Source of the DNA: Chloroflexota bacterium | GTDB lineage: Bacteria > Chloroflexota > Dehalococcoidia > Lucifugimonadales > UBA3495 | Direction: 5' to 3' | DNA length: 64,000 nucleotides | Assembly: GCA_028875055.1 (NCBI GenBank) | Contig: JAPPGG010000007.1 | Location: 1 to 64,000, forward strand | Shown: positions 77-47,015 of the stretch, in pieces | Layout of the letters: the number at the start of each line of letters is the position of its first letter | Numbering within the stretch: position 1 is the stretch's first letter | Notes under the pieces: generated by a model | Databases searched by the model: none | Seen by the model: only the letters and a program-made list of their open reading frames with translations | What the model was told of the DNA's origin: nothing | Position numbers and translations under genes: made by a program

Positions 77-901
77 CTAGCGGGCCAGTATGTCGCGGCC
101 AAAATAGTCGCGGCTGACCTGGGCCAAAGCTCCGCTCCCATTGATCTCAACGATGGCCCGGTTAATTGCCGGCAGAAGTCCCGCGTTCTGCAGCGGGACG
201 ATTATGCCGATTTCCCCGGAGCCCAGCGCGTCGAACTCTGGTGTGCCGGGGAGCGGCACAACGGGCTCCCCCACCCGTTCGAACTTCCCAAGCTCCCCTG
301 CTCCGAAAAAAGGAGACTGGTTTATTGCCAGATCGGTAATCACGTCATCGGCAATTGTGAGGTCAGCCCGAGCATCCGCCACCGCCTGGAAGGCGTCGAC
401 CTGGTTTTCGAAGGATATGGTCGCAATGTGGGCCAGGCCTGGGGAGTTCAGGTACCTTTCGTAGATCGTCGCAGACTGAACGGCCACCAAGCTGCTTTCG
501 TCCAACTCGGCACCGCTTCCAGCCCGACGGATGAACTGCCCGTAGGACCTGTAGTAGGGGTCGGAAAAGCCGACCAACCGCTCCCGAAATTCAGTCCTGG
601 TGAAGGAGTTGATGGCCAGGTCGAACTCACCACGCCGGGTACGGTCGAATACCTGCTCAAAGGCATCGGTTTGCCATTCGCACTTGGCATCCAGGACTTG
701 GCATAGCAACGTACCGTATTCATAGTCGAACCCTGCCGGTTGGCCACGTTCATCCTCGTAGCTGAAGGGCGGGTAATCCACACTTGTGGCGATTATCAAG
801 GTCTTTCCACCCGACCGCTGGCCGGGAACCAGCAAGAAAACAATGATGACCACCGCCATAAGCAGCGCGACAGCAGTGGCAAACCTTCCCAATCCCTTCA
901 T
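77..901 (-). CDS. ABC-type amino-acid/solute periplasmic-binding protein (PBP type 2, SBP_bac_3-like)
   Basis: 274 aa; N-terminal hydrophobic signal, 'LIIATSVDYPPFSYEDERGQPAGFDYEYG' and 'GEFDLAINSFTRTEFRERLVGFSDPYY' typical of SBP_bac_3. Confidence 0.88.
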   Translation of the reverse strand: MKGLGRFATAVALLMAVVIIVFLLVPGQRSGGKTLIIATSVDYPPFSYEDERGQPAGFDYEYGTLLCQVLDAKCEWQTDAFEQVFDRTRRGEFDLAINSFTRTEFRERLVGFSDPYYRSYGQFIRRAGSGAELDESSLVAVQSATIYERYLNSPGLAHIATISFENQVDAFQAVADARADLTIADDVITDLAINQSPFFGAGELGKFERVGEPVVPLPGTPEFDALGSGEIGIIVPLQNAGLLPAINRAIVEINGSGALAQVSRDYFGRDILAR

Positions 902-44103: not shown

Positions 44104-44452
44104 CGACAGCTACCTCTCTCCCCGTAAACCTCTCCGTCCTATGAAACTGTCTCAAAGGTACCGCCCCCCCTTGACCGGCAAAAGCCAGGATGGGGGTGCC
44201 CGGCAGCCTTGCGCCATCTTTGCTCAATAGGGGCCGGAATTCTCAACCTGTTTTGAGACAGTTCCCTGGAGCCTGGTTCCGGGGAATTGTACCCGCTGCG
44301 TCCGCTCCAGGCCATTGCTCTCCCCCACCTGGACTGCCTCAGGCGGCGGACTCAGCCATTTTGGCCTGGCAATACCCGGGGCAACCAATCTCCCAGGCCC
44401 TGCGGACTACCTCGGAAGGCGACAGTTAAGCCTTGACAAGCCGCCAAACGTT

Positions 44453-44470
44453 ATAGAACAATTGTTCTAT
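44453..44470. promoter_or_regulatory. 18-bp perfect palindrome ATAGAACAATTGTTCTAT (LexA/SOS-box-like, GAAC-N4-GTTC)
   Basis: Direct reading; TTGACA at 44433-44438; 24 bp upstream of ORF start at 44494. Confidence 0.7.
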
Positions 44471-44493: not shown

Positions 44494-44808
44494 TTGAATA
44501 AACTCTTGCTCAAGGCCTGTCGCAGGTGTAGCGGCGACCTGACCCTGGACGGCGACGACTGGATTTGCCTTCAGTGTGGCGCGTATCACTACGTTGGACT
44601 GTATCCACCTGGAGAAACTGCCTCATTGGCCAGCTTCAGCCACATATTGCAGTCGGGATCTGGCCCCGATGCCGGCCCGCGCAGCATCCCGGACATCAAC
44701 AGGAGCGCCGCGACAGGAATCCGGACGGTCAATACCGGTCAGGGAGTTTCTGAAGCTGGCGGCCAGGCGTCCGTCGTCAGACCGTGGATGTCGGCGGTCC
44801 TCCGATGA
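44494..44808 (+). CDS. Small zinc-ribbon protein (N-terminal CxxC...CxxC)
   Basis: TTG start; 'LKACRRCSGDLTLDGDDWICLQCGAYHYVG'; the C-terminal extent is uncertain. Confidence 0.55.
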   Translation: MNKLLLKACRRCSGDLTLDGDDWICLQCGAYHYVGLYPPGETASLASFSHILQSGSGPDAGPRSIPDINRSAATGIRTVNTGQGVSEAGGQASVVRPWMSAVLR

Positions 44809-44920: not shown

Positions 44921-45409
44921 ATGACGGTGCTGGCCCTTGATGCGGGGGTTCGCGAAACAGGCTGGGCCATCTTCCTTCCCGGCGGAACCATTGAAACAGG
45001 CATAATCCGGCTTTCCCGCAGCCGCACCCTGGACTCCGCCAGCAGGGTGAGCCAGCTGGTGGAAAGGCTGGACAGTCTGGCAGCCTCGTGGCGTCCTCAA
45101 GTGGTTGCCTACGGTCAGCCCTCGGGCATACGCTGGCCGGAGCCATCCCTGGAACTGCTGGATTCCTCCCTGGTGAAGTGGGCGTCAAAACGCCAGCTGG
45201 TCCTCCACACCTATCCTGCCCAGGAGGTGCGGACCGCAATCGCGCGTCATTCCCGGGTCCCGCCCGACCAGCTGGCCTACGCGATAATGCGGAGGTTAAG
45301 GTTGATTGGAGTCCGAAAGTCCACTCCCGAATGGGAAGCGCTGGCCATCGGCTACTACCACCTTCAAAGCATTGCTGCCCATGATCCGGACGGCGAGCCC
45401 CGCGGGTAG
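44921..45409 (+). CDS. RuvC-like (RNase H fold) resolvase-type protein
   Basis: 'MTVLALDAGVRETGWAIFLPGGTIETGIIRL...PQVVAYGQPSGIRWPEPSLELLDSSLVKWASKRQLVLHTYPAQEVRTAI'. Confidence 0.7.
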   Translation: MTVLALDAGVRETGWAIFLPGGTIETGIIRLSRSRTLDSASRVSQLVERLDSLAASWRPQVVAYGQPSGIRWPEPSLELLDSSLVKWASKRQLVLHTYPAQEVRTAIARHSRVPPDQLAYAIMRRLRLIGVRKSTPEWEALAIGYYHLQSIAAHDPDGEPRG

Positions 45410-46003: not shown

Positions 46004-46447
46004 ATGAGCGCTGAGAACTTGCCCGGATTTCCGGCAATAAACAGGCCTCCGGGTGAAAAATTGACATTGCCCGGTTCCACAATCGGAGGGGAAGTGGGGA
46101 CTTTCTACGTAGATTTTACGGTGTGGAACAGGGAAGGAACCCGTTCCCAGACATTGAATGGGCTGGTGGACACCGGCGCCTTATACCCGCAGGTACCGGC
46201 CAACATTCTCGAAGATCTGGGGGTGGAACGGGAGTTCTCGGAAATATTCCGATTGGCCGACGGAACCTGGCGTGAACTCGCCGTCGGCCTGGCAACCATG
46301 GAATTGGAAGGGCAGAGTCGTAGTGTTTACACCATATTCGGCCCCGAAGGTAGCAGCGTATTGCTCGGAGCCCTGGCGTTGGAGACTTTTGCCTTGGCTG
46401 CCGACGCCCGGAACCAGTGTTTGATTCCGGCAGACTTGACGCTATGA
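46004..46447 (+). CDS. Retropepsin-like aspartic protease (clan AA)
   Basis: 'SQTLNGLVDTGALYPQVPANILEDLGVE' (D-T-G active site), '...VLLGALALETFALAADA'. Confidence 0.85.
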   Translation: MSAENLPGFPAINRPPGEKLTLPGSTIGGEVGTFYVDFTVWNREGTRSQTLNGLVDTGALYPQVPANILEDLGVEREFSEIFRLADGTWRELAVGLATMELEGQSRSVYTIFGPEGSSVLLGALALETFALAADARNQCLIPADLTL

Positions 46448-46493
46448 GATGCTTGGTGTATCTCAGGGACCAAAATTAATCGCTGAGGTTTCC

Positions 46494-47015
46494 ATGTCCT
46501 CAACAAAGATGGAGCCCACACGGGAACCCGAAGACAACCGCAGGCTGACGGAGCATGACTCCATACCGGTCCACATCGAGTCTGAAATGGACGTGGCGAC
46601 GCCCGCCGACTGGGACTGGCGTATTATCGGGGCCAGCCAGCCCAACGCCGCCGTCTTCCACATCAACCACAGCGACGTTACCCAGGTCAAGGTGGATGCC
46701 CTGGGCCCGCAGGACTCGCCCCCGGATGCCCCCTTCGTGGTCAAGAAAGACATTCCGGTACTGATAATCGACACCCTGGACCAGTACTGGGCCGGGGAGT
46801 CGCGCACCAGGCTGCCCCTCCAGGGCTTGCGGGTGCCGGTCGCCGGGGATACGGAAGCCGAGGCCAAGCAAAAGCTGGCGGCCGACCTGGCTGCCCAGTT
46901 GCGCCTGCTGTTGTTGCTCTCCTCCTCCCGCTCGGGAAACATCGCCCCGGAGTTAAAGGCCAATCTAATCTACCTGGACTCAGTACTCGGATTGCGGGAC
47001 AGGACATCCGATTAG
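46494..47015 (+). CDS. Hypothetical protein
   Basis: 173 aa from 'MSSTKMEPTREPED'; coding character, followed by terminator. Confidence 0.6.
   Translation: MSSTKMEPTREPEDNRRLTEHDSIPVHIESEMDVATPADWDWRIIGASQPNAAVFHINHSDVTQVKVDALGPQDSPPDAPFVVKKDIPVLIIDTLDQYWAGESRTRLPLQGLRVPVAGDTEAEAKQKLAADLAAQLRLLLLLSSSRSGNIAPELKANLIYLDSVLGLRDRTSD

Follow-up and report, generated by a model that had tools for sequence, protein, structure and literature searches.

The locus and its two genes

The window (the whole 64-kb stretch of DNA analysed here) holds, at positions 44453-44470, a perfect 18-bp palindrome, ATAGAACAATTGTTCTAT, which is a feature without strand and lies between a TTGACA hexamer (44433-44438, + strand) and the start of a short open reading frame. 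The position and symmetry given for it in an initial annotation have been confirmed exactly, as has the half-site spacing of the LexA (DinR) type, since GAAC and GTTC flank a 4-bp spacer perfectly at 44456-44467 (core GAAC-AATT-GTTC). Its placement downstream of TTGACA and before a zinc-ribbon reading frame that precedes a RuvC-like gene also holds, although the gap between the palindrome and the TTG start codon (44494) measures 23 bp and not 24 bp as stated there.

The reading frame that begins at this codon (44494-44808, + strand) is the first gene of the operon and codes for a zinc-ribbon protein of 104 aa, in which four cysteines and a GDL...DWxCLQCG core are invariant among 10 homologues and the tail is unconserved. 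No significant Pfam or NCBIfam match was found for this family, and every locus tested has the gene next to that for the RuvC-like protein. The second gene (44921-45409, + strand) encodes a protein of 162 aa with a weak match to the RuvC family, below the curated cut-offs, and with a profile match to E. coli RuvC (E 4e-8). In a Foldseek search with its AF2 model (pLDDT 89.5), the top matches were RuvC resolvases, including the Thermus thermophilus enzyme bound to a Holliday junction, with TM-scores of about 0.77-0.79 to solved RuvCs (T. thermophilus, D. radiodurans, and E. coli). Judged from the model, this protein has the RuvC (RNase H-like) fold.

The catalytic set of RuvC consists, by residue numbering, of Asp7, Glu66/70, Asp138 or His143, and Asp141/146. 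This set is incomplete in the RuvC-like protein. In a comparison of 20 homologues with the intact RuvC encoded in the same genome (G000:C68) and with solved RuvCs, the first Asp (Asp7) was retained in 17, the catalytic Glu was absent from all 20, the third position was His in most homologues and Pro in this genome, and the fourth, the last Asp, was Glu in every one of the 20; six residues are also deleted after the position of the catalytic Glu. The genome encodes a separate canonical RuvC, and the alignments identify the RuvC-like protein as a paralogue whose active site has degenerated and not as the resolvase of the genome. Because of the lost Glu, the change of the last Asp to Glu, and the deletion, its ability to cleave Holliday junctions is doubtful.

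The two genes form a lineage-specific operon of SAR202. In the named genome collection, the relatives of the RuvC-like protein come from Chloroflexota MAGs, with one weak exception, and several of these are titled SAR202 cluster or Dehalococcoidia, which makes it very likely that the window stems from this lineage too. A longer operon was rejected, as an oppositely oriented reading frame follows the RuvC-like gene in the six relatives checked. A phage or mobile origin was also discarded, as no relatives were found in viral contigs and the chromosomal neighbours are kept in relatives; the operon stays upstream of a DUF3467 gene, an uncharacterised gene (46449-47015 in the window), and proS in most relatives with long enough contigs. 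Between the DUF3467 gene and the next gene, the window carries a clan AA aspartic protease-like gene (46004-46447), which is present there in some close relatives (in two copies in L093) and was not detected in most others.

Conservation of the operator and layout of the promoter

Conservation was followed in the 28 loci with enough upstream DNA, namely the window and L093-L119 (SAR202/Dehalococcoidia). The sequence AGAACN4GTTCT was found with zero or one mismatch in 25 of the 28, some 300-560 bp before the start of the RuvC-like gene, and with two mismatches in the other three (L112, L115, and L117); by a simple count, chance alone would supply an equally good match in about 2% of 750-bp stretches of this kind. 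In all 28 loci the zinc-ribbon reading frame lies between the operator and the RuvC-like gene. At this operon, both half-sites are kept across many genera, with variation at most flanking positions. As the four letters of the spacer also change from lineage to lineage, the conserved part is the pair of half-sites. The operator consensus, TAGAACATATGTTCTA, is of the GAAC-N4-GTTC type with A/T-rich flanks.

Counts of the bare motif are much less informative. The 12-bp core GAACN4GTTC occurs twice in the window against 0.97 expected, which is not above chance, and 63 times in the 3.75-Mb genome against 46 for a reversed control, a mild excess; such counts are weak evidence and were dropped as a test. 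On the other hand, the extended form ATAGAACN4GTTCTAT has a single zero-mismatch occurrence in the 3.75-Mb genome, and no second copy of the 18-mer was found elsewhere in the 64-kb window at up to three mismatches, nor any in 100 shuffles.

The alignment of 27 loci gives the pattern TGACA-N7-ATTG-N3-T-AGAACN4GTTCT-(G)ATAnnnT, and in 19 of them the 17-bp spacer between TTGnnn and TAnnnT contains the whole operator. This layout recurs at imuB of the same genome, whose promoter reads TTGACT-TTTAGAACATAAGTTCG-TAAACT. Since the operator fills the promoter spacer in most relatives, LexA bound there would be expected to exclude RNA polymerase. The TTGnnn/TAnnnT promoter is degraded in the window and in some near relatives, where the upstream TTGACA is perfect; this combination suggests that promoter elements turn over while the operator stays in place. 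The exact promoter at this site is therefore uncertain; TTGACA (44433-44438) is the likely -35 hexamer in this genus, and a consensus scan pairs it, over a spacer of 18, with AACAAT (44457-44462, + strand), which matches at four of six positions and would be a weak -10 within the operator.

A TGAC box stands at a fixed upstream position in 20 of the 27 loci and is one base off in the window's own row of the alignment. In relatives, the same box also stands 12 bp upstream of ATTG/TTG in the promoters of four imuB genes and one recA gene. It may serve as an alternative -35 or as an activator site, or it may reflect the preference of a sigma factor. The arrangement was seen at about 44433-44438 of the window, upstream of the operator in L093-L119, and in L181, L185, L193, L194, and L148. 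The TGAC-N8-ATTG-operator composite was also tried as a finder of further regulon members and was abandoned, as it matched almost only this operon.

Attribution to LexA and predicted regulon

In Bacillus and Mycobacterium, the motif of LexA is GAAC-N4-GTTC (PMC3323433), and the operator described here shares its half-sites, its spacing, and its occurrence at lexA and error-prone polymerase promoters. It differs from that box in its A/T-rich flanks (TAGAAC...GTTCTA) and in that recA is no target in this genome. The attribution was examined with a weight matrix trained on 24 operon sites of other genomes, from which every lexA site and the window's own site were excluded. Within the 64-kb window, the sole site of at least 8 bits is 44453-44470, at 27.6 bits. 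Upstream of lexA genes across the order, the matrix gave p≤0.05 in 43 of 50 cases against shuffles that, for the lexA, recA, imuB-like, and dinB promoters alike, preserved base composition only and not dinucleotides; sites of at least 10 bits were present in 56% of the 50 lexA upstream regions and in 0.9% of 344 control windows. Sites were also recovered in 12 of 20 imuB-like promoters and in 6 of 26 dinB promoters. Conservation at the operon and this recovery of lexA promoters together support the initial reading of the palindrome as a LexA box.

The genome possesses one lexA gene, at 1495-2148 of L005, whose product scores above the family cut-off and has the canonical LexA_DNA_bind and Peptidase_S24 domains. 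A different operator at this lexA had been named beforehand as evidence against the proposal; what stands there is a related operator, AGAACATTAGTTTT, 11 bp before the start codon, with one mismatch to the core and 16.1 bits. The own-genome sites were located by pattern searches. Another of them precedes an imuB-like gene for a Y-family polymerase; a PHP/DNA_pol3_alpha gene comes next, and the pair forms the imuB-dnaE2 arrangement. A further operator lies ahead of a radical-SAM/HHH gene whose match to TIGR03916, a family assigned to the UDG-COG4277 system, falls just short of the cut-off. This system has been reported as SOS-regulated in Bacteroidetes (PMC8565304).

Not all of the expected targets were recovered by the genome search that the initial annotation had proposed, with sites of this type being found at lexA and the imuB-like gene but not at recA, and with the bare motif only mildly enriched. 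In the upstream region of the recA gene of this genome (L006), the matrix detected no LexA-type site, and recA was rejected as a member of the regulon here; most relatives lack the site as well, but it is present in some (8 of 30 recA promoters), a patchiness that suggests that control of recA was gained or lost within the order. As to the concern that such palindromes might fall randomly within coding regions, the bare 12-mer does fall inside genes, but the best-scoring own-genome sites examined are in promoters of SOS-type genes.

Taken as a whole, the palindrome is very probably a LexA operator of the GAAC-N4-GTTC type, predicted from sequence comparison to repress a two-gene SOS operon in SAR202-cluster Chloroflexota. 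It is improbable that the site belongs to another dimeric repressor, specific to this operon and merely similar to a LexA box. The operon sites are indeed more perfectly palindromic than most lexA sites, and the TGAC-N8-ATTG-operator composite is almost confined to this operon, both of which would suit a dedicated regulator; nevertheless, a matrix built from the operon alone recovers lexA and imuB promoters, lexA is the very gene expected to be autoregulated by LexA, and the neighbours that were inspected included no regulator gene next to the operon.

The possibility that the palindrome arose by chance or has no regulatory function, which the unremarkable frequency of the 12-bp core in the window would allow, can be given almost no weight. 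The 18-mer is absent from shuffles, and in many genera the half-sites persist before this operon, with spacer and most flanks varying, which rules out chance. Equally negligible is the probability that the inverted repeat acts in RNA, as a hairpin instead of as protein-binding DNA. Any transcript containing a perfect palindrome can fold in this way, but the folding energy is ordinary (z -0.25), Rfam gave no match, and the repeat is placed, in most relatives, between -35 and -10, upstream of the expected transcript; an RNA hairpin or Rfam element was consequently dropped for want of support.

Predicted role of the operon

Under the LexA assignment, a LexA dimer would occupy the promoter in the undamaged cell and block RNA polymerase. 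After DNA damage, RecA filaments would trigger the self-cleavage of LexA, and the operon would then be expressed together with lexA, imuB-dnaE2, and the radical-SAM/UDG-linked repair gene. Binding, cleavage, and induction in this organism are inferred from the established biology of LexA. This type of switch is already known; the operon predicted to be under its control is undescribed in the literature searched, where no description of an SOS response in SAR202 was found either. The proposal provides a predicted LexA operator and part of an SOS regulon for the marine lineage SAR202, which is represented here by MAGs only, and it points to a lineage-specific operon that is probably damage-inducible.

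With regard to the products, binding of junctions or forks by the RuvC-like protein is a reasonable guess, and one may speculate that it associates with branched DNA alongside the zinc-ribbon protein, in a role that is mainly structural. A more detailed scheme, which we consider rather unlikely, is that on damage the cleavage-deficient paralogue and its zinc-ribbon partner bind but do not cut Holliday junctions or stalled forks and either shield these structures or act as competitors of true RuvC, and that the promoter has an additional activator or sigma-specific box, TGAC-N8-ATTG. A related case is that of ruvCAB, which is SOS-regulated in some Vibrionaceae and alphaproteobacteria (PMC3323433). 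Common to both is a RuvC-fold gene under LexA control (here predicted), whereas in SAR202 the gene concerned is not canonical ruvC but a paralogue with a zinc-ribbon gene as its partner. The RuvC-fold protein of this operon seems to have lost cleavage, which offers a lead on a new role for the fold.

Finally, operator-like sites were noticed at two other places. In the same genome, L011 (G000:C11) has two adjacent ones at 1502-1550, before the gene for a 121-aa protein that weakly matches HTH_23, and the first of them is flanked by TTGACA and TATACT. The other place is L239 (G014:C124), where a full TGAC-N8-ATTG with a perfect operator (569-599, minus strand) precedes not the RuvC-like operon but an alpha/beta-hydrolase-like reading frame.
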